NCBI GenBank assembly: GCA_003141855.1
Contig: PLNS01000006.1
Span: forward strand, 232,359-267,458
Source: Candidatus Bathyarchaeota archaeon
Lineage (GTDB): Archaea; Thermoproteota; Bathyarchaeia; Bathyarchaeales; Bathycorpusculaceae
Length of the DNA stretch: 35,100 nt
Reading direction: 5' to 3'
The notes beneath the pieces are model-generated. The model searched no databases. It was given only the letters and a program-made list of their open reading frames with translations, and had not been told where the DNA came from. Shown one piece after another: positions 9,787 through 23,253 of this stretch. The position numbers were made by a program, and so were the translations under genes. The stretch's first letter is position 1; each line of letters begins with the position of its first letter.

Positions 9787-12700
9787 TTATCGAAAGATAC
9801 TTTCAAGTTGAATAGCCAAGTTGATTGCTTTTGGCCAACCGATTTGTAAATACGCCTCTAATATTTGAACAAAGTCTAAACGACTCTCATCCATACCAAG
9901 AACTATCTTGTGTTCGGCAAGGACACGTCCTAAGATGTTGATTGTTTTATCAGCTGCAAGTTGTTCTCCTGAAATTCCAAAAGGCGTACTTGCGGTCGTT
10001 ACCTTATTAAGCCAATGGAGTCCCCGAGCAACGTCAAACCATATGATATGCTCGATTCCATCAACTAAGCTATACGCTATCTGTGGATCGGGAAAGGCAA
10101 GTAAAACTTCAAGGATCGGTTCGGCATTTTTCCACCAATCAGATACTTGAGTGGTTGCTTCACTACTAACCATAGATGACCAATGTGTTGCGTAGTTCTC
10201 TGCCGAAACACGAAACTCAATTGTAATTCGATAAAGAAGCCAGTGCAGGTCTTTTAGTATTTGCTGTACCTCGCTGGTTGGCTGAGAACTTATTTCTTTT
10301 TGATGTATTTCAGCCCAGTCTTTAGCAGCACCTATTAGATTCAATAAAAATATCATCGCCTCTTGATGACCGATCAAATTTACTTTTATGGCTCTAGGAA
10401 GCAATTCGCCTGTTGCAAAATCAGAAGCCCCTTGTAACTCGTCCAAGTTTTCATCAAGGCTTTGAATCAACTCTTGGAGAATTTTGGATGCCCAAGTTTC
10501 GCCATCTCCAAAAGCTATCGCACCCAACCATGAACCACAAATTTTTCTAAGATCCCGCGAATTACTTGAATGAACAGCATTCAAGAGTTTTTTCATTAAC
10601 TGGGTCGCTCGCATCGAATCATTTTTCTGAAGTACCCAGAACCAATTCTGAATTAACGCTATCATGAGAACTTCATCGTTTTGCGGTTCAGATGGAAGTG
10701 TATCAATCCAAAACTCCAAAGTTTCCCACACATAAGCCGGCCATTTCTTAAAGATAGACCATAATCGCATGCTAACTTGCATTCGCACCTCCTTTTCGGG
10801 CTGCCGTGCAAGAGTACAAAGCAAACTTTTGTATTCATCTGTGAGTGAGTCAACTTTACCTGCTAAACATACGAGCGCCCCTACTGCGTCGCGCTTTGAA
10901 TTCAAAAGTTCAGCTTCTCTAAATTGAGTCCATTTCGCTGTTTGGGCGGGCACAAAATAACATTTGTCAAATATGATTGCTCGGAACCTTGCGGTCAAAT
11001 TATCGATTAGCAGATTATCTAACCGAAATGGACTGCACGCGAGCTGGGCATAGCCATGAATTAGTCTACATTGAACTAATGAACCGATGGCATCGCCTGC
11101 TGCATTTGGTTTATCGGCCAATTTTTGCTCAATTTCACTCATTTTTTGAAGAATTACAGATACATCGCTTTCAGTAATCGTTTTGGTTGTTAGCTGTTCT
11201 AAAAAGGAGGAGGTTTCAATTAGCTCCTGAATCACTGGATTAGTTATATCTAAACCCTGACTCTGTAGCCACATCTCTTTAGTGAATTCTTGTACACCGG
11301 TTGTTACTTTCCCATATTGTTCCTCTTTAGAAACAGGCGGGTTTTTGCTTAGGAAATCCTTTGCAGCGGGAGTTAGTTTTTCCTCTGGAATAAATTGTAA
11401 CAGTCTTGCAGTTATAGCGAGCAGTCTTTCTCCTTTACCCGTGCAATTGTGAGCCTGGTTGGGTATGCTTAAGACTGATTTTTCAATCTGGTAAACGCTT
11501 TCGATAGATAAATGAGGTACAAACGCCTTGATGCAGTCTTCTACTACACTCATCGGGAGGCTGACCATAAAACTTGAATCAAGTAATATTGTCCAGATGC
11601 GCTGAGCAAAAAATTTGGGTGAATTGCCAGCAGCAATCAACATTTTTCTCCAAATGGCGCCAATTGTGTTTTCTTTAATTAATACCTGCTTTATTTTTTC
11701 CCAATTTTCATTAGATTCATTAAGGCTTAATTTTTCAAGATATTGTTGCCAGTTCTGTAGCATTATTTCTTGTGGATCTCCTGCATTCGAATTATCCCAG
11801 AAACCAGAATAATCTAATTGTATATGGCAGGCACTACCTTCCCAAAGGAACTCCTTAACTGGATAAGCCGCTTTGTATAGATGATGCTGATATAGATAGT
11901 GATTAAGCGTTTTTATCAGCGCTCTTGTTGCTTCTTGCGGAGCAGCGGATAAGAATTCGGCATATTCTTGCGAGAGTTGATACCAGACCATCTCATAGTC
12001 TTGGCGTTTATTAGTAAGCAATGGTAAAATTTGTCCAAAACCCATTGGTATTTGTTCATTGCCCGTTTCGCTATAACCAAAAATATTATCGTATACATCT
12101 ACAGCAAGGTTTGGGTCGACTCGCCAAATGTATTTGATGCCGTTCGCTATTCCGTATGCTTGTAGGTAGCCAGCTCGCTCAAGCTCAGGACGAGAGAGGA
12201 TCTTTTGGATCATTTTCTTTGACTCGGCGAGGTTTGAAGCAATTGTGGTACAAACCCAGAGAATTGGAGCACTGATCAGTCGACTTGGTTTTTTGTCATG
12301 CGCCCAATGAAAGTCTATAAGGATAATTGCTGACTGGTTTGTTAGTAATTTACCTATTGCTGACAAGTTTTCTATTTTATCAAACGCCGAAAATAACAAT
12401 CGGCGGCCGGAAAAGACCAATTCCAAGTTAGCGCTACTTACTAAGTCTTTTGCGAACTCAATCCACCAATCCCCAGAGGACTTATCAAACAATACCGGTA
12501 AAGAAGTAAATGACGCCGCCGAAATTACTTGGTTGATTACCCCAATCCATTTTGGACTGTCAGCATCGTTCTTAACAACTCCTTCTAACAATGTTTGCAA
12601 GTCTTGACGATTTTTTGCCTCTTCTGCAACCACAATATAACTTGGATATTTGTTTAACAATGAAACTGAGGACTTTTCAAGTGTTAGTATTGTCTCCCAA

Positions 12701-14640
12701 AAATCGTCGCGTCCATGCGTCCAAGCAAATCGATGATATAACAACAAACTAGGACGAAGGAATAGTGCCCATGTGTTAGGGATCGCAAGTTCTGACTCAA
12801 GATTTTTATGCCGTGGACGGACAAAAAGTCGTTCAGCAACGTAGTCGAATAACAAATGGTGATTAAATTCAACTAATTGCTCATCCGGCAAACGTCCCGG
12901 AAGGAAGACTGGATGGCGAATGAAATCTGAGCTGAAGAGTGCGTTACTTACATTCGCACTTAAATTGTCAGGGGTAGTTTGTAGAGTTTTCTGCTCAACC
13001 ATTTTTTCGACTGTTTCTTTGATAGCTACTGTCATTTCTTGCCTTAACGGTTGGGCTTCAATTCGCCGGTTCCAATACTCTTCAAAGAGCTCTGCTTGTG
13101 TGGAAAGCGCCGAAAATTGTATAGCTGAATCCCCAGCAGAAATTAGTTTGCATAATAAATCTAGGTTAAATAAATTGTACAAAATAGGCTGAAGGTTTGG
13201 ATTCCTTTCAAGCACTTCCTTGGCGGTCGGAAGTTCTGCAAGAACTTCGTTAAATTCACCCTCAGTTAAATCAGGTACGACTATGTGGTTAACTGTTTTT
13301 AAATCAGGGCTTATAAATTGGGTTGAAACAGAATTTTCCAAAGATGCTGGAAAGAGGCCCTGCAAATCACTCGCATACCGCAAGTCAAACATACGTATAG
13401 AAGCAACTACTCGGATACCCACACGTTTGGCCAAGGCAATTAGTTTCCGATATCCATTTTGAATCGCTGGATCACGTAAACCATCAAGTCCATCAATGAT
13501 TAAAACGGTCTGCGAAGTGCTAACGGCTTCTGAAAAAATGCCTGACCAAAAATTCTGAAGATTGAGATGAGTCTGCAACTCTTGTGGGGATGAATACGGT
13601 AAGGAGTCTGCCGCCCAATACCAGACACGGAAACCTGTTGATTTCAATTCCTCTACTAAAGTCAAGAGACACCCTGTTTTTCCAGACCCGGCGCCCCCTG
13701 TTATAATGTATGATGCCTCTTGAACGGCTCTAACTATCTCCTTTAACACAGGTCGAGAGATGTGCAGTTTATCATTTGCTATAGAGAGACTTGTTCTTCC
13801 TTTTTCAGTTTGATCTATGACTTCTATGTTTGTCAAGTCATATAGCCTTTCGAAATCCTTTTTGTAATTAACGCTTTCTCGTAGAGCAACGCCTTCAGAG
13901 ATTAGTCTATTTCGAAGTGCAATGCGGTCGATTGAACCCCTTTCCGCAAGAAGGTCGTCTGCTAAACAATGTAGCAATCTAAGAACTGAGGTTAGTTGGG
14001 AGGGATTAGAAAGTAATCCATTTTGAAGAGCATCAATAATTGCTAAAGAGTCAGAGTCACTTTGCTCTAGTTGAAGCTGTTTTATGTAGATTCGCTTTAA
14101 CAACTGCTGGACTGAAATCGATTGGTCGCCATTTGGGGCACAAGCAACAGATTGGGTGAGAGTTAATAATTCATTTACAATTTCTTGTTCTTGCTGGTTT
14201 TTCGCTGCATCGATTATGTTTGACCCTTGAGGTGATTGGCGGTATCTGCGTAGAATTTGCTCTAACATTTTTAGCCTGCGGTTGTTTTTTTCATAAAAAA
14301 GAATTAAGCAATAGCCTATCCCAGGCGATATGTTCTGTTGCTCTCTATAAAACTGTTTTACAACTGAGCCCCACTCACTATCTACACTGCTTGAAAGGCT
14401 TAGGCTCCGCTTGCATTGCCCAAAAAGAACTTCACTCGCATCAAATTCAACTCTTAAGTCATCGACATCATCGTTTGTTTCTGAAAATATCCGCTGAGGA
14501 ACTGATTCGGCTTTAAAACCAAAAAGTTCACCCATTGGAGTCTGAAGAAGCACTCGTGCGCACCACCAGGCCGTTACTCGAGCCTGAAAACGTTGGCCGC
14601 CAGCCATGGCAGCGCCACCTGAATGTTGCGGTTCAGACAT
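9787..14640 (-). CDS. Avs-like STAND NTPase with N-terminal nuclease domain
   Basis: A giant protein of about 1617 aa. An N-terminal domain (to about residue 220) opens GGQRFQARVTAWW and contains DVDDLRVEFD followed by EVLFGQCKRS. This D...QxK pattern is that of PD-(D/E)XK nucleases of the Cap4/DUF4297 type. A P-loop NTPase follows: Walker A GGAGSGKT at about 315-322, Walker B TVLIIDGLDGLRD at about 378-390. The remaining 1100 or so residues are helical, with no recognised catalytic motif, as in sensor domains. Avs proteins recognise phage proteins through that C-terminus, oligomerise, and then cut DNA. I chose ATG 14640 because GGGGGA lies just upstream; ATG 14655 and 14658 are alternatives. 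Its AT-rich composition contrasts with its neighbours. Confidence 0.78.
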   Translation of the reverse strand: MSEPQHSGGAAMAGGQRFQARVTAWWCARVLLQTPMGELFGFKAESVPQRIFSETNDDVDDLRVEFDASEVLFGQCKRSLSLSSSVDSEWGSVVKQFYREQQNISPGIGYCLILFYEKNNRRLKMLEQILRRYRQSPQGSNIIDAAKNQQEQEIVNELLTLTQSVACAPNGDQSISVQQLLKRIYIKQLQLEQSDSDSLAIIDALQNGLLSNPSQLTSVLRLLHCLADDLLAERGSIDRIALRNRLISEGVALRESVNYKKDFERLYDLTNIEVIDQTEKGRTSLSIANDKLHISRPVLKEIVRAVQEASYIITGGAGSGKTGCLLTLVEELKSTGFRVWYWAADSLPYSSPQELQTHLNLQNFWSGIFSEAVSTSQTVLIIDGLDGLRDPAIQNGYRKLIALAKRVGIRVVASIRMFDLRYASDLQGLFPASLENSVSTQFISPDLKTVNHIVVPDLTEGEFNEVLAELPTAKEVLERNPNLQPILYNLFNLDLLCKLISAGDSAIQFSALSTQAELFEEYWNRRIEAQPLRQEMTVAIKETVEKMVEQKTLQTTPDNLSANVSNALFSSDFIRHPVFLPGRLPDEQLVEFNHHLLFDYVAERLFVRPRHKNLESELAIPNTWALFLRPSLLLYHRFAWTHGRDDFWETILTLEKSSVSLLNKYPSYIVVAEEAKNRQDLQTLLEGVVKNDADSPKWIGVINQVISAASFTSLPVLFDKSSGDWWIEFAKDLVSSANLELVFSGRRLLFSAFDKIENLSAIGKLLTNQSAIILIDFHWAHDKKPSRLISAPILWVCTTIASNLAESKKMIQKILSRPELERAGYLQAYGIANGIKYIWRVDPNLAVDVYDNIFGYSETGNEQIPMGFGQILPLLTNKRQDYEMVWYQLSQEYAEFLSAAPQEATRALIKTLNHYLYQHHLYKAAYPVKEFLWEGSACHIQLDYSGFWDNSNAGDPQEIMLQNWQQYLEKLSLNESNENWEKIKQVLIKENTIGAIWRKMLIAAGNSPKFFAQRIWTILLDSSFMVSLPMSVVEDCIKAFVPHLSIESVYQIEKSVLSIPNQAHNCTGKGERLLAITARLLQFIPEEKLTPAAKDFLSKNPPVSKEEQYGKVTTGVQEFTKEMWLQSQGLDITNPVIQELIETSSFLEQLTTKTITESDVSVILQKMSEIEQKLADKPNAAGDAIGSLVQCRLIHGYAQLACSPFRLDNLLIDNLTARFRAIIFDKCYFVPAQTAKWTQFREAELLNSKRDAVGALVCLAGKVDSLTDEYKSLLCTLARQPEKEVRMQVSMRLWSIFKKWPAYVWETLEFWIDTLPSEPQNDEVLMIALIQNWFWVLQKNDSMRATQLMKKLLNAVHSSNSRDLRKICGSWLGAIAFGDGETWASKILQELIQSLDENLDELQGASDFATGELLPRAIKVNLIGHQEAMIFLLNLIGAAKDWAEIHQKEISSQPTSEVQQILKDLHWLLYRITIEFRVSAENYATHWSSMVSSEATTQVSDWWKNAEPILEVLLAFPDPQIAYSLVDGIEHIIWFDVARGLHWLNKVTTASTPFGISGEQLAADKTINILGRVLAEHKIVLGMDESRLDFVQILEAYLQIGWPKAINLAIQLESIFR

Positions 14641-14870
14641 CCAATTATCCCCCATCAAGCATTTTTCATTTAGGTATTAATTCTTTCGGTCACTACGCTG
14701 GTTTGCTTGTTTTATTCTGCTTTTTGTGGCGCGAAATTGCTTATAGGGGGCGGTTGGTTGTGGGGTTGGTGGGCGGGGTTTTGTCTTTATGGGCTATGCT
14801 AGTGCCCGCTTGCATTGTGCTGTTCATCGCTTTCTGCTTCTGTCGCTGCCATTTTTGGGTAGCTTACCAA

Positions 14871-17066: not shown

Positions 17067-17309
17067 ACGTCAGAACAAAAAATTATTATAGGACCCCCAA
17101 AAATTACTCGCTTCGAGAAAGCAAGAATAGTAGGCGCACGTGCGCTTCAAATCTCGATGGGAGCACCAATCTTGGTAGATGCAGCTGATAACACAAACCC
17201 GATTGACATCGCATTAAGTGAACTTGACGCGGGAATCTTGCCAATAACTATCCGAAGAACCCTGCCAGATGGGACTTTTCAAGATATTCCATTAAAATGG
17301 CTATCTTGA
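17067..17309 (+). CDS. rpoK: DNA-directed RNA polymerase subunit K, apparent ACG start
   Basis: An 80-aa protein, the archaeal equivalent of eukaryotic RPB6, needed for RNA polymerase assembly. Seen are [30 protein letters not shown], the acidic [21 protein letters not shown] and the ending [15 protein letters not shown]. No ATG, GTG or TTG precedes the conserved part. The frame is closed by TAA 17061-17063, and ACG 17067 stands where related proteins have Met (then SEQ...IIIGPP). GGAGAG at 17052-17057 gives that ACG an ideal 9-base spacing. The gene is 6 bp beyond the thermosome stop, so translational coupling may aid initiation. An assembly or sequencing error turning ATG into ACG is the main alternative. 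Confidence 0.9.
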
Positions 17310-17318
17310 GCCTCAATT

Positions 17319-17350
17319 TTTCTCTTTTAGATTTTCGTTTTTAGTTAGCT
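17319..17350 (+). terminator. T-rich transcription terminator after rpoK
   Basis: Several runs of four to five T follow the rpoK stop within 40 bp. This is the form of intrinsic terminator used by archaeal RNA polymerase, which needs no hairpin. Confidence 0.45.
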
Positions 17351-17480
17351 TTTGTCTTTTTCTTTCTAACCTTTTTTGGTATCCTATTGAAATGGAATTT
17401 AAGTCCTTTTTACGCTTTTTTGTTGTTTCCTGTACTTTTTTAGACGTTTTTACGCTTTACCTGCTTCTTTGGCTTTAGTT

Positions 17481-17617
17481 GGTTGTTTGTTTTTTCTTTA
17501 GTAGTTGTTGCCGAAAACCCCTATACACAACAACAACCAACAGAATGAGCTGTTTTTTGTGTTTTGTGTTCTACGTTGGGTTCGGGTTGCTTTTTGGTTG
17601 TGCAAGCTGCCACAAGC
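17481..17617 (+). repeat. diverged dispersed repeat, copy B
   Basis: Partner of copy A (15092-15235) in inverted orientation, with exact blocks at 17487-17508 and 17527-17543. Together the two copies bracket thermosome-rpoK and stand at the edges of the two defence modules. The open frame across this copy encodes a short Cys-rich hydrophobic peptide (MSCFLCFVFYVGFGLLFG) that has no clear ribosome-binding site. Confidence 0.7.
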
Positions 17618-17822
17618 AACACGCTTGCGATAAAACATCGCTATTGAATATATTTTTCGAAAATCTTGCAAATGTTACAGCGGCAAAGTTCTGATTTATC
17701 GACATTTGGCATTGACAAACGAGGGACAGACAATTAACCTTCTTGGCTAACAAAGTAAAAATTAAAATGCGAAGATAGATAAGTATGCATAGCCAAGAGT
17801 GCGGTGATACATCATTAGTGAC

Positions 17823-19040
17823 TTGAGAGTTGAAGCGGTTCTGTTGCCACCTAGTTGGACTCGGTTGCCAGTTAAGGATGTTATCCGACTTATACCTCTT
17901 ACTCGGAAGAAAATAAAACGAAGTCAGTATTTGGAAAAAGGAAGCCTGCCTGTAGTCGATCAGGGTAAGAAGTTAATTGGTGGATATACGAATAATGAAG
18001 CACTGAAGATCACTCATTCAAAACCAGTAATAGTTTTTGGCGATCACACCAGAAAAATCAAATTTATCGATTTCGATTTTGCCGCTGGTGCTGACGGCAT
18101 AAAGGTTTTTGAACCTCTTGCCCTTTTCGATCCTAAACTCCTTTTCTTCTTCCTACAGGGTGTTAACGTACCAAACAAAGGCTATTCCCGTCACTTTCAA
18201 TTCCTTGCTAACTCCACAATCCCGGTGCCTCCAGTAAATGAACAACAGCGCATTCTTAACAAACTTGAGTTTTTTTTTAGTTGTCTTGATGCTGGCATGA
18301 CATCGATCAATAAAGTTCAATCGCAGCTGAACTATTATAGACATGCACTATTGAAACATGCCATGGAGGGTACGTTGACCGAAGAATGGCGTCATAGCCA
18401 TGCTGAAGCCCGCAACCAACTAAACGACTCGGCGACTGAAGTCTTAAAACGCAAATTGCCGACAGGCTGGATGTGGACTAAAATCGGCTCGATTGGTCAA
18501 TTGATCTCTGGGCAACACATTCTCTCAAAAGATTACAGTTTCAAAAGTGACGGCACGCAATATTTGACAGGCCCCTCAGACTTTGGGAAGACCAATCCCA
18601 TAATTACAAAGTGGACGCTACACCCGAAAATATTTGCTCGCAAGGATGATATCTTGATTACTGTTAAAGGCTCGGGAGTTGGTAAAGTCAATTTGCTAAA
18701 CTTAGAAAGTGTAGCAATCGGTCGCCAGATTATGGCAATAAGATCTCAAACTATCGAACCTCGTTTCCTTTTCCTTTACTTGCAATACGCAAATAATGAA
18801 CTGCGAAAGCTTAGCAGGGGGTCAACAATACCAGGAATCAGAAGGGAGGAAATTCTAAATTTTCCGATCCCCGTGTGTTCGAACGATGAGCAAAAGACGA
18901 TAATCCAAAAAGTTGAGTTTCACTTATCAATTATTGAGAATCAAGAAAAAATCGCATCATTAATTCTAGCTGAGGCTAACAATTTACGCAGAAGCATATT
19001 GAGTACTGCGTTGTCTGGAGAATTGACAGTAAATCAATGA
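17823..19040 (+). CDS. hsdS: type I restriction-modification specificity subunit HsdS
   Basis: A 405-aa protein with two target-recognition domains separated by helical conserved regions. Each domain ends in the hallmark PxxEQ-type segment: VPPVNEQQRILNKLEFFF about residues 136-153, and CSNDEQKTIIQKVEFHL near 355-371. The second TRD starts at GWMWTKIGSIGQLISG. HsdS directs the methyltransferase to a bipartite DNA site. TTG 17823 is the only standard start near the homologous region. GGTGA at 17803-17807 is 15 bases away but would suit ATT 17814, so the start is uncertain. The S-before-M gene order is less usual, and the gap to hsdM is 81 bp. Confidence 0.93.
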   Translation: MRVEAVLLPPSWTRLPVKDVIRLIPLTRKKIKRSQYLEKGSLPVVDQGKKLIGGYTNNEALKITHSKPVIVFGDHTRKIKFIDFDFAAGADGIKVFEPLALFDPKLLFFFLQGVNVPNKGYSRHFQFLANSTIPVPPVNEQQRILNKLEFFFSCLDAGMTSINKVQSQLNYYRHALLKHAMEGTLTEEWRHSHAEARNQLNDSATEVLKRKLPTGWMWTKIGSIGQLISGQHILSKDYSFKSDGTQYLTGPSDFGKTNPIITKWTLHPKIFARKDDILITVKGSGVGKVNLLNLESVAIGRQIMAIRSQTIEPRFLFLYLQYANNELRKLSRGSTIPGIRREEILNFPIPVCSNDEQKTIIQKVEFHLSIIENQEKIASLILAEANNLRRSILSTALSGELTVNQ

Positions 19041-19121
19041 TCTCGCATGCAATCGTACTAGATATTTAGGAGCAAGGTATTGACAATATCTATAAACTAC
19101 AAATAATAAAGCAATGTAACA

Positions 19122-20618
19122 ATGGCTTGGGTAGTAATGGCTAACGAAACAGGTTCAATCGTTCAGAGAGTTTGGAATTTCTGCACAGTTTTAAGAGATG
19201 ATGGTATTAGTTATGGCGATTATGTTGAACAGATTACCTACCTTCTTTTCCTAAAAATGGCTGATGAGCAAACCAAATATCCATTTAATAAATCGCCATA
19301 TATTCCAAACGGTTTGGATTGGCAAAGCCTTACTACCGCTTGTGGTTTAGACCTTGTAGCTCAGTATCAATTTATTTTAAGCGAGTTAGGAAAGAAGAAG
19401 GGGTTGTTGGGTGCAATCTTTAGAAAAGCTCAGAATAGGATACAAGATCCTGCTAAGCTCAAGCGGTTAATTGAACTGATCGACCAAGAAAAATGGATGT
19501 TCATAGACATAGACGTAAAGGGGGAAATATACGAAGGCTTACTCCAAAAGAATGCTGAAGATATCAAAAGTGGAGCTGGACAATACTTCACTCCTCGACC
19601 CCTTATTAAAGCGATTGTTGACGTCGTTCGACCTAAGCCAGGTCTGAGAATACATGATCCCGCATGCGGAACAGGCGGGTTCTTTATCGCTTCGTACGAT
19701 TTTATTAATGATCCTCATAACTACTCCTTAAGCCCTTCTCAACAAGAGTTTCTAAAGTTTGATACATTTAGTGGAAATGAAATAGTTGATAATGCCCTGC
19801 GGCTCTGCATAATGAACTTGTACCTTCACGGAATTGACGGCGCAGACGATCGACCATGTCCAATACAGGCCATTGATTCACTTGAAGACAGCCCAAGCAG
19901 CCACTATGATATTGTTATGACCAATCCGCCGTTCGGGCGAAAATCTAGTATGACCTCCTCCAACGGAGATGGTAAGCTCGGAAAAACGCTTTCATACCAG
20001 AGGCTGGACTTTTGGGTAGCAACAAGCAATAAACAACTGAATTTTCTTCAGCACGTCAAGACGCTGTTGGAACCTGACGGAAAAGCAGCTATAGTCGTGC
20101 CTGACAACGTTCTGTTTGAGGGCGGGGCAGGCGAAATAGTCCGCCGCAAACTCTTAGACGAATGTGATGTACACACCCTTCTCCGTTTGCCATCGGGAAT
20201 ATTCTATGCTCAAGGGGTAAAGGCTAACGTCCTTTTCTTTGATAACAAAAACACTTCTCAACCAAGAACTGAAAAGTTATGGATATACGATCTCAGAACA
20301 AACAATCATTTTACTTTGAGAACGAAACAGCTAACTTACGAAGACTTGCAGGATTTTATAAAATGTTATAATCCCAAAAATCGGTCGGATAGGACAGAAA
20401 CTGAGCGATTTAAAGTCTATTCATATAAAGACCTTATCAAGCGAGAGAAAGTAAATTTAGACATTTTCTGGCTAAAGGATGAAAGCTTAGGTGAGACCGA
20501 TAAGGTTGCTTCTTTACAAACGATTGCTGTCGAGATAGCGGAAAACTTGCAATCAGCCTTAGATCAATTTAGCAGAATACTTGAAGATGTAGAAGAGAGC
20601 GAAGGAACATACGAATGA
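19122..20618 (+). CDS. hsdM: type I N6-adenine DNA methyltransferase HsdM
   Basis: A 498-aa modification subunit. After the helical N-terminal domain come QYFTPRPL (motif X, residues 154-161), DPACGTGGF (SAM-binding motif I, 179-187) and NPPF (catalytic motif IV, 268-271), all intact, so an active adenine methylase is expected. With HsdS it should form the M2S modification complex. ATG 19122 and ATG 19137 are both possible starts; neither has a clear ribosome-binding site. Its stop overlaps the ATG of the ptuA-like gene (ATGA 20615-20618), which ties methylase and ATPase into one transcript. No HsdR gene is adjacent. Confidence 0.96.
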   Translation: MAWVVMANETGSIVQRVWNFCTVLRDDGISYGDYVEQITYLLFLKMADEQTKYPFNKSPYIPNGLDWQSLTTACGLDLVAQYQFILSELGKKKGLLGAIFRKAQNRIQDPAKLKRLIELIDQEKWMFIDIDVKGEIYEGLLQKNAEDIKSGAGQYFTPRPLIKAIVDVVRPKPGLRIHDPACGTGGFFIASYDFINDPHNYSLSPSQQEFLKFDTFSGNEIVDNALRLCIMNLYLHGIDGADDRPCPIQAIDSLEDSPSSHYDIVMTNPPFGRKSSMTSSNGDGKLGKTLSYQRLDFWVATSNKQLNFLQHVKTLLEPDGKAAIVVPDNVLFEGGAGEIVRRKLLDECDVHTLLRLPSGIFYAQGVKANVLFFDNKNTSQPRTEKLWIYDLRTNNHFTLRTKQLTYEDLQDFIKCYNPKNRSDRTETERFKVYSYKDLIKREKVNLDIFWLKDESLGETDKVASLQTIAVEIAENLQSALDQFSRILEDVEESEGTYE

Positions 20619-22177
20619 GGATAGACAAAGTCCACATTGGCAATTTCAAGAACCTGAACAAGGTAACCGTTGACTTTGACGAAAAATCTTTATCGACGGT
20701 TTTGATCGGGCCCAACGGTTCGGGTAAATCGAATCTTCTAGAAGCAATAGCCATTATCTTTCGAAACCTTGACCTGCACGAAGACCCAAAATTTAAGTAC
20801 ACTATTGACTACCAAATTCGGACGCATAGGATAGGCATTGATGCTGATCCTTTAAGAGAACGAGACAAAACCCAAATAGTTGTCGATTCTAAAGTTGTTT
20901 CTTTCCGCACGTTTGTAGATCACAAATCCGATTATTTACCTAACAATGTTTTTGGTTATTACTCTGGAGTCAGCAAAAGGTTTCAACAAATTTTTGCAAA
21001 ACACCAAAATCAGTTTTATACAAAATTGATAAATTCTGTTGAGCCTCCCTTAAGACCTTTGTTCTTAGCTAGGACCTTCCACGGGCAGTATGTATTATTA
21101 GCGTTTTTTGCACTAGGCGACGAAGAGTCCGTGCGGTTCCTGAAAGAATACTTTAACATAACAGGAATTAGTAGCATTGTCTTCCATTTGAAAGAGCCGT
21201 ATTGGCATATGGGCAAGGGTACGAAGTCGACAGATGGTCTGTTTTGGGGTGCTGAGGGAGTAGTCAAGAATTTTTTGTATGATATATCTAAGATATCTAC
21301 ATGGAGCGAAAAAAAACCGCATCGCATCAATCTTTCGAACAAAAGAGTACGACGAGAAGAAAGATTTGATCTACGTATAAAAGATTTGCAATCTCTTCAA
21401 GAACTGGCAAGGCAGTACGGAAAACCTGTTCAATTCTTCAAAAAACTTGAAAGCGTTTCAATTTCGGATTTGATTGGGAAGCTATCCATCACAGTTAGGA
21501 AGGAAGGGGCTGATAGTAGCATCGAGTTCGGACAATTATCCGAAGGCGAACAACAATTGTTAGTAGTACTTGGTCTATTGAAGTTTATGAACGAAGAAGA
21601 GTCTTTGTTTTTGCTAGACGAGCCTGACACTCACCTCAATCCCAGGTGGAAACTTGGGTACCTCAGAATGATTGAAAGAGTTGTTGGTACGAACGATAAA
21701 AGCCACATAATTATCGTTACTCATGATCCTTTGCTTATAGGGGGGCTGACAAAAAGTCAAGTCCAAATTTTTTCCGTATCAAAAAAGTACTCGTTACTTA
21801 TCGAGCCACCAGAGGTCAATCCTATTGGTTTAGGGGTAGATGGTCTACTGACAAGTGATATTTTTGGTTTGCCATCGACACTTGATATAAAGACACAAGA
21901 AAAGCTGGATCAAAGGATAGTTTTAATAGTTAAGAAAAACTTGGTGAAAGAAAAACTCACTGACCAAGAGGCAAAAGTATTAGCGGATCTCGATGACTAC
22001 CTTTCAAAGCTTGGGTTCATCAGTACTGTTAGAGACCCCTTATACTCGAAGTTTTTAACCGCTTTGCGAAAATATGAGTTGAAAGAGAAGATAACCTTTG
22101 ATGAACTCGAAAGGAAAGCGCAAGCCGACATTGTCGAAAAATTATTACTAGAACTCAAGGCTGGTGTAAAACAATAA
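20615..22177 (+). CDS. ptuA: PtuA-like SMC/ABC-type ATPase (Septu)
   Basis: A 520-aa single-chain ABC-type ATPase of the AAA_15/AAA_21 group. It has Walker A GPNGSGKS (residues 32-39), signature LSEGEQQ (308-314), Walker B LFLLDEPDTH (331-340) and H-loop H370 (IIIVTHDPLL). The intervening region is a short arm rather than the long coiled coil of true SMC proteins. The C-terminal 130 residues are charged and helical. Followed directly by an HNH nuclease of the PtuB type, it matches the PtuA subunit of the Septu anti-phage system, whose ATPase complex holds the nuclease in check. Translational coupling to hsdM is the unusual part. Without its partners it could be any OLD-like or RecF-like ATPase. 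Confidence 0.85.
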   Translation: MRIDKVHIGNFKNLNKVTVDFDEKSLSTVLIGPNGSGKSNLLEAIAIIFRNLDLHEDPKFKYTIDYQIRTHRIGIDADPLRERDKTQIVVDSKVVSFRTFVDHKSDYLPNNVFGYYSGVSKRFQQIFAKHQNQFYTKLINSVEPPLRPLFLARTFHGQYVLLAFFALGDEESVRFLKEYFNITGISSIVFHLKEPYWHMGKGTKSTDGLFWGAEGVVKNFLYDISKISTWSEKKPHRINLSNKRVRREERFDLRIKDLQSLQELARQYGKPVQFFKKLESVSISDLIGKLSITVRKEGADSSIEFGQLSEGEQQLLVVLGLLKFMNEEESLFLLDEPDTHLNPRWKLGYLRMIERVVGTNDKSHIIIVTHDPLLIGGLTKSQVQIFSVSKKYSLLIEPPEVNPIGLGVDGLLTSDIFGLPSTLDIKTQEKLDQRIVLIVKKNLVKEKLTDQEAKVLADLDDYLSKLGFISTVRDPLYSKFLTALRKYELKEKITFDELERKAQADIVEKLLLELKAGVKQ

Positions 22178-23022
22178 GATACATTGATATCAGCAAGCTC
22201 CATATACCAGACGAATGGAAAAGAAAAGCCGACCAGGCTTCTGAGGAATTGCGCCGACTTCCACCAGAGAGCAGATCGAAGTACATTGAAGATCATAATT
22301 ACATCTGGAGAGAGATCAAAAGTGAGCTTGAAAAGTTATCAGACAATAAATGTTGGTACTGTGACTTTAACTATGTTAGAAGCGATTTCGACGTGGACCA
22401 TTTTAGACCCAAAAACAAATTAAAGGATTTCGATGATCCCGAACAGGAATCAGAGGGATATTGGTGGCTTGCTTTTGATCATAAAAATTTTAGGCTATCC
22501 TGCAACTACTGTAATCGTCCCCACAAAGGCGAAGACGATGTAACAAGAGGAAAAGCGATGTTCTTTCCTTTATGCAATGGCACGCAAAAGTGTCCAGAAC
22601 AGGGGGACATCGATACAGAAGAACGAATTTTGCTTGATCCTACCGACCCCTTAGATCCTGGTTTCTTATGGTTTAACGAAGAAGGGCGTGCTGTTCCAGC
22701 GTTTGACAAGGGCTATGGCAAATACCACGAGCGAGCAGCGAAAACGCTAGACATACTAAACCTCAATGATTGCCAGATAAAAGAACAAAGGCGACTTATC
22801 AAAAATGAATGTGATTCTATTATTAAAGAAGGCGATTCGGCCTATAGGCTGTTTGAGTCTCGTAATCCTGAGGGAGAAATACTTCTCAGGGAAGTTTTGA
22901 GGCGAGCACGAAACTTGATCGATGACTCATCCCCATTGTCGAGTGTAGCAAGAATTTACCTCTTATCAGGAAATAGTAATAATAATAGACCATGGATCGA
23001 TAAAATACTCAAACATATTTAG
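22174..23022 (+). CDS. ptuB: PtuB-like HNH endonuclease (Septu), non-standard start
   Basis: A protein of about 282 aa if started at ATA 22174. The nuclease core has the zinc-ligand pair CWYC, then DVDHFRPKNK (catalytic DH), YWWLAFDHKNFRLSCNYCN and HKGEDDVTRGKAMFFPL, the PtuB-type HNH pattern. Coding-like sequence RYIDISKLHIPDEWKRKAD runs right up to the ptuA stop, but no ATG, GTG or TTG is in frame until TTG 22249, which would remove about 25 residues. ATA 22174 overlaps the ptuA TAA exactly where an ATGA overlap would be expected, and GGTG (22163-22166) lies 7 bases upstream. ATT 22183 is another option. Its role would be cutting invader DNA or RNA once released by PtuA. Confidence 0.85.
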   Translation: MRYIDISKLHIPDEWKRKADQASEELRRLPPESRSKYIEDHNYIWREIKSELEKLSDNKCWYCDFNYVRSDFDVDHFRPKNKLKDFDDPEQESEGYWWLAFDHKNFRLSCNYCNRPHKGEDDVTRGKAMFFPLCNGTQKCPEQGDIDTEERILLDPTDPLDPGFLWFNEEGRAVPAFDKGYGKYHERAAKTLDILNLNDCQIKEQRRLIKNECDSIIKEGDSAYRLFESRNPEGEILLREVLRRARNLIDDSSPLSSVARIYLLSGNSNNNRPWIDKILKHI

Positions 23023-23029
23023 GGCGACT

Positions 23030-23145
23030 CCCGCTAAGCGATTTTTTAGAACTTTTCCTAAACTATTAGGTTACACAGCTATTTGCGTTGAGCGAGCGTT
23101 ATACTGCCGTAACCGAATTTTATGTCAACAAGTCATCTTAGCGGG
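23030..23145. repeat. 9-bp inverted repeat beyond ptuB
   Basis: CCCGCTAAG (23030-23038) and CTTAGCGGG (23137-23145) are perfect arms 98 bp apart in the 231-bp gap between ptuB and the Mut7-C gene. They may mark the right edge of the inserted defence cluster or the stem of a structured transcript. No tRNA or gene was recognised in the gap. Confidence 0.4.
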
Positions 23146-23253
23146 TTATGATTGTTAGGGTTGGTTCCGGTTCCATGTTTGCTGTGGCGTATGCGACAAG
23201 CGCTATGCTCTAAAACACATCATGACGTACCCTTGGGATGCAAAAGCCTACAC

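Follow-up and report, generated by a model that had tools for sequence, protein, structure and literature searches.

What does a Septu-type ATPase and nuclease pair do next to a type I methyltransferase that has no restriction subunit beside it? The question is raised by a 35,100-nucleotide stretch of DNA (the window) from Candidatus Bathyarchaeota archaeon (assembly GCA_003141855.1, contig PLNS01000006.1, positions 232,359 to 267,458 of the forward strand). Between positions 17823 and 23022 of the window, hsdS and hsdM of a type I restriction–modification (RM) enzyme are followed by ptuA and ptuB, which encode an ATP-binding cassette (ABC) ATPase and an HNH nuclease. A first-pass annotation of the letters alone had placed these four genes in one direction, which the open reading frames and the Pfam and PADLOC matches bear out (Table 1), and had proposed that methylation by HsdMS marks self DNA or gates PtuAB, so that PtuAB replaces the translocase HsdR. 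Because the same four genes are found again in dozens of bacteria and in a second archaeon, hsdMS-ptuAB has the look of a genuine defence system, as yet largely uncharacterised, and not of a set of chance neighbours.

Recurrence and partner exchange of the four-gene unit

We scanned 84,980 species, with one genome per species, using a six-sequence PtuA alignment selected on similarity alone. The best-scoring 80 of 433 relatives form the locus sample, which for that reason represents the near clade and not all relatives. With custom profiles, both hsdM and hsdS were found to adjoin ptuAB in 76 of the 80 loci. The four exceptions are L064 and L077 (L and G numbers are our labels for loci and genomes), which lie at contig ends, L070, in which hsdM is missing and ptuB is short, and L054, in which ptuAB stands alone; at L024, all genes of the locus are broken together. 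The loci span Bacteroidota, Pseudomonadota, Chloroflexota, Acidobacteriota, Planctomycetota, Actinomycetota, Bacillota, Aquificota and others, together with a Methanosarcina, which is the second archaeon with the four-gene unit. In addition, plasmids of Pseudoalteromonas, Pantoea, Vibrio and Roseomonas carry the same set (tblastn). Genes overlap at 65 of 82 hsdS-ptuA junctions and at 72 of 85 ptuA-ptuB junctions, and the relatives are arranged as hsdM-hsdS-ptuA-ptuB or hsdS-ptuA-ptuB-hsdM, with hsdR in front or not. Of the properties by which we define the hsdMS-ptuAB clade, the window has all four genes in one operon-like run and lacks the C-terminal extension of HsdS (described below). The linkage of the four genes, failing which the first-pass annotation would have seen a chance neighbourhood, recurs in bacteria and archaea, across many phyla.

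As the first-pass annotation had suggested, PtuA was compared with that of stand-alone Septu. One strongly supported branch splits the hsdMS-linked PtuA proteins from nine stand-alone or retron plasmid PtuA proteins, in a tree that has long branches and a small outgroup. The PtuA tree shows nine changes of gene order and the HsdM tree a single one, and it follows that ptuAB has been re-paired repeatedly with two hsdMS lineages: it was swapped between the two HsdM lineages about nine times, and the four-gene unit was restored each time. The correlation of pairwise distances is 0.89 for HsdM and HsdR, 0.59 for PtuA and PtuB, 0.41 for PtuA and HsdS, and 0.25 for PtuA and HsdM. The clustering of defence genes is common, and an orphan methyltransferase could lie next to Septu in a defence island by accident; against this, the four-gene set stands in independent loci with overlapping frames, repeated re-pairing and a locus-specific HsdS extension (described below). 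Such an accident is exceedingly improbable, and the recurrence together with the repeated re-pairing rules it out.

HsdR in the window and in its relatives

Of the type I RM subunits, the window encodes HsdM and HsdS (Pfam), and no hsdR lies within it, as the first-pass annotation had stated. A profile built from the HsdR proteins of related loci gave no match in the whole genome, even at an E-value of 0.001, and the HSDR_N model gave sub-threshold matches only, in frames of 903 and 1019 residues that also bear an N6 methylase domain. An HsdR translocase/nuclease encoded elsewhere that would partner the window HsdMS, and would thereby make the neighbourhood a matter of chance, was rejected on these two profiles. 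Since the genome is 96% complete, its lack of HsdR is likely and not proven.

Among the relatives, HsdR lies near the locus in 29 of 80 cases, whereas in about 35 of the 80 it is missing from 4 kb or more of flanking sequence on both sides (L100, counted here, has a possible HsdR about 7 kb upstream). Fifteen genomes with an HsdR-less locus contain no full-length HsdR by the HSDR_N model or the HsdR profile, and these include isolates, e.g., Pedobacter caeni, Methylobacterium ajmalii, Rhodanobacter and Azospirillum; eight other such genomes have a strong HsdR match elsewhere. HsdR families beyond the reach of HSDR_N and the locus-derived profile would escape detection. Presence of HsdR switches about 18 times along the PtuA tree, with at least 13 changes forced by well-supported branches (group table), and 17 times along the HsdM tree. 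The PtuA motifs and the alignment-invariant PtuB residues are kept to the same degree whether or not HsdR is present at the locus. This pattern suggests that HsdR serves as a second effector, optional to the system, and is repeatedly gained and lost. The proposal that PtuAB replaces HsdR stands in so far as HsdR is often absent, but HsdR and PtuAB are not alternatives, because the 29 loci hold both and the changes of state are frequent.

The sharper form of that proposal, and of the explanation that we favour below, is direct substitution: HsdMS would find the unmethylated motif, PtuAB would cut in the place of HsdR, and methylation would serve as the self mark only, just as it does in conventional RM. 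The HsdR-less loci, and the genomes (that of the window included) in which HsdR went undetected, speak for it, as does the PtuAB of E. coli ATCC 25922, which is said, in a work cited by PMC11555353, to act on nicked DNA. We nevertheless consider it unlikely, given the loci with HsdR beside PtuAB, the want of any known precedent for a PtuAB that reads methylation, and the tRNA cutting of other PtuAB pairs, i.e., the effector of retron I-A Eco7, which depletes tRNA-Tyr (PMC11555353), and Septu EcB88, which cuts tRNA-Tyr (PMC13096335).

The HsdS extension and the window copy

The HsdS proteins of related loci are mostly 480–645 residues long and end in a tail of about 75–120 residues, composed of a basic linker and a small conserved domain with the consensus ..LW..S....IDEFY.ELK.EI..G.I.E.. 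This extension was found in 84 of 89 loci. It matches no Pfam family and has no convincing relative in the PDB by sequence search, so that "winged-helix-like" is an impression only. A search of 45 whole genomes returned essentially one strong match each, despite up to 15 Methylase_S matches, and the extension thereby marks the ptuAB-linked HsdS; it is too divergent for the single-sequence tblastn search of plasmids. We infer that the extension is an adaptor that joins the methyltransferase to PtuA.

At L053 (2031-2216) the extension is a small open reading frame of its own, with hsdS and ptuA on either side. Among the fused HsdS tails (L027-L106), methionine makes up about 6% of residues at the boundary between linker and domain, compared with about 1%, which hints at gene fusion or an internal start; ribosome-binding sites ahead of the extension were unconvincing.

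The extension, out of sight of the first-pass annotation, is absent from the window HsdS, from the frames of the window and from the whole genome. A separate small gene holding it was sought among window frames down to 20 residues and rejected, as nothing rose above noise. The extension is both the strongest new lead and the strongest reason to regard the window copy as atypical.

Table 1. Features of the window discussed in the text (positions in the 35,100-nucleotide stretch)
Feature	Position	Strand	Matches and remarks
hsdS, specificity subunit, 405 residues	17823..19040	+	Pfam Methylase_S, 85 bits, 7.6e-24; two Methylase_S stretches
hsdM, type I adenine methyltransferase	19122 or 19137..20618	+	N6_Mtase, 228 bits, 2.7e-67; HsdM_N, 49 bits, 1.6e-12
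ptuA, OLD/Septu-type ABC ATPase, 520 residues	20615..22177	+	Pfam AAA_21, AAA_15; PADLOC PtuA, 578 bits, residues 1-516
ptuB, HNH nuclease	22174..23022	+	PADLOC PtuB, 248 bits, residues 1-279
Inserted island	17310..23253	.	about 5.9 kb, flanked by rpoK and a convergent 158-residue gene

The window hsdS starts with TTG, with an alternative start at 17844. The HsdM protein matches PADLOC MTase_I with 630 bits and keeps the catalytic NPPF and S-adenosyl-L-methionine motifs; a second hsdM/hsdS-like pair lies elsewhere in the genome (G000:C26:27909-29763). In PtuA, the Walker A, signature and Walker B motifs and the switch histidine are all intact, and these motifs are invariant in 86 of 86 sequences. 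AlphaFold models of PtuA and PtuB have a predicted local distance difference test score (pLDDT) of 83.5 and 94.6, respectively; their top matches in the PDB are PtuA of retron I-A and Septu, and PtuB of retron Ec78 and Septu, with TM-scores of only about 0.4–0.5 for either protein. PtuB also matches the PtuB proteins of the PDB by sequence, and scores 42 bits against TIGR02646, under the cut-off of 52. The window thus has both Septu components, a PtuA-type ATPase with intact motifs and a PtuB-type HNH nuclease, in a four-gene unit with hsdMS and not as a stand-alone pair. We note that in PtuB of L019, L022 and L023 the zinc-type cysteines are partly lost (CWYT for CWYC, with the second pair gone), although the histidine and the asparagines are retained.

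The stop/start overlaps described by the first-pass annotation hold for hsdM and ptuA, which share four bases (ATGA, 20615-20618). For ptuA and ptuB the overlap exists only if ptuB begins at the homologous position, which is a non-standard ATA (22174-22176). The first in-frame standard start, TTG at 22249, lies 71 bases past the ptuA stop and would cost PtuB 24 residues that are conserved and confidently modelled. Across 86 loci, ptuB starts with ATG in 67, GTG in 13 and TTG in 5 (the TTG call of the window included). The ATA may be a start codon outside the standard set, a sign of damage to the gene or an error in the sequence.

Because the extension is missing, the gene order altered and ptuB without a standard start, the window copy may be rewired or eroding, i.e., an island that does not operate in the usual way although the general system is real. 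The order hsdS-hsdM-ptuA-ptuB is unique among the loci compared, and the ATA stands against the ATG or GTG of relatives. However, the four frames are open, the motifs are intact, the PtuB residues are conserved and the PtuB model is confident, and odd starts appear to occur in other genes of the genus (rpoK has ACG in three genomes). We give decay or rewiring of this copy less than even weight.

The thermosome gene, rpoK and the 158-residue gene are contiguous in genomes of the same genus (the distance from the thermosome gene to the 158-residue gene in G360 is 289 bases, rpoK counted within), and the island is for this reason a clean insertion into a site that is empty in congeners. Among 300 genomes of the phylum, PtuA of the window type is present only in that of the window. 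The rpoK gene (17067-17309) has ACG where congeners have a homologous ATG start, and an upstream start is impossible because in-frame stops directly precede the ACG; the same position is ACG in G360 and G359 and CTG in L149, of the same genus. Elsewhere in the window, a 1,623-residue open frame on the reverse strand (9787-14658) has a weak AAA_19 match alone.

How HsdMS may control PtuAB, and related systems

Like Septu, the window has an ATPase and HNH nuclease pair, which the PADLOC PtuA and PtuB models match at full length. Unlike Septu, the pair is tied to hsdMS, its PtuA has about 520 residues compared with 690–773 among the plasmid PtuA proteins of stand-alone systems and retrons, and window-type PtuA falls on a separate side of the tree. 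Retrons of type I-A (Ec78/Eco7, Ec83) likewise place a PtuAB effector under another module; here the governor would be a DNA methyltransferase, and no reverse transcriptase is found among the four island genes, all of which are accounted for. Type I RM systems share HsdM and HsdS with the window, which differs in lacking HsdR and in having PtuAB in the operon, whereas the relatives differ in the additional C-terminal domain of HsdS. The methylation-associated defense system (MADS) also brings together HsdM-like, HsdS-like and ATPase genes, and its mad5 is the top PADLOC match of the window HsdS; however, the NCBIfam scores fall far below the cut-offs (107 against 720 for MAD2, 41 against 420 for MAD3, 38 against 400 for MAD5), and the window has PtuB.

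Restriction-linked relatives of PtuA have already been noticed by curators, as NCBIfam TIGR04435 ("restriction system-associated AAA family ATPase") describes an AAA/ABC ATPase that adjoins hsdM and hsdS, for example in Sphingobium (L025) and Priestia (L026). The window PtuA scores 130.4 bits against the cut-off of 300 and is separated from that family by a long branch, and the custom PtuB profile found no PtuB at L025 and L026. In addition, a passage of PMC12839542 that concerns BREX refers back to previous accounts of RM-like systems in which an OLD-family ABC ATPase is paired with a nuclease; these pairs resemble that of the window in standing beside modification genes. The first-pass annotation, in taking the hybrid to be of no described kind, therefore went too far. 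A full-text literature search found no characterised hsdMS-ptuAB system, with an earlier survey of ABC ATPases lying outside its coverage, and we claim as new only the repeated re-pairing, the extension of HsdS and the function that we propose.

Our favoured explanation, which we consider rather probable, is that HsdMS senses and PtuAB executes, with HsdR optional, in a widespread and horizontally moving defence module. As their families suggest, HsdM and HsdS would together make up a type I adenine methyltransferase acting on its own motif in host DNA. PtuA and PtuB, whose homology and fold are observed, would be the effector, with activity predicted from these. PtuAB may be restrained while intact HsdMS occupies self-methylated DNA, and would be freed once HsdMS meets unmethylated foreign DNA or an invader disables HsdMS. 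The HsdS extension probably contacts PtuA in most relatives, and HsdR would be a dispensable second effector. Such a division into sensor and effector would explain why HsdR is optional, why hsdMS is nearly obligatory and why HsdS bears the extension. Precedents for it are the PtuAB effector of retron I-A (PMC11555353) and PrrC, which a linked type I enzyme silences (PMC2610378). A stronger version, to which we give slightly less than even weight, makes this a distinct, unnamed defence class, in which a type I methyltransferase has become a sensor: HsdS would use a dedicated C-terminal domain to dock PtuA and to free the Septu-type nuclease on unmethylated DNA or upon attack on the methyltransferase, with HsdR dispensable.

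An alternative that we entertain tentatively is that PtuAB is a suicide nuclease, which the methyltransferase complex would keep in check until an invader inhibits or eliminates that complex. Its precedent is PrrC of EcoprrI, an ABC ATPase nuclease encoded within an hsd operon, which is silenced by the linked type I enzyme and switched on by a phage anti-restriction peptide (PMC2610378); PrrC differs in being a single protein with an anticodon nuclease domain, in place of an ATPase and an HNH protein, and in having HsdR present. The tRNA-directed PtuAB of Eco7 and EcB88 agree with such abortive action, as do the near-total rarity of ptuAB without hsdMS, the loss of hsdM with a shortened ptuB at L070 and the joint breakage at L024. 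In contrast, L054 has an intact-looking ptuAB without nearby hsdMS, though other methylases occur in that genome, and inhibition by HsdMS is a step that we infer. As far as sequence can tell, direct restriction and release from guarding both appear to fit, and the putative target of PtuAB could be either invading DNA or host tRNA.

Several observations weigh against a sensor role of HsdMS and an effector role of PtuAB. The ptuAB of L054 (Tengunoibacter tsumagoiensis, 10001-12450) belongs to the clade, yet no hsdMS lies closer to it than 10 kb; it may have gone back to the stand-alone state of Septu. The window copy is without the HsdS extension and without a standard ptuB start. Finally, the weak correlation between PtuA and HsdM gives no support for a tightly co-evolving interface, although a weak correlation is expected if the modules are exchanged.

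Pairs of hsdM and hsdS without hsdR are often dismissed as orphan methyltransferases. If PtuAB is their effector, a share of them would be complete defence systems, for which the HsdS extension offers a simple sequence marker and a concrete candidate protein contact. PtuAB itself would then be a plug-in effector under at least three controls, i.e., alone, with a retron, or with a methyltransferase.

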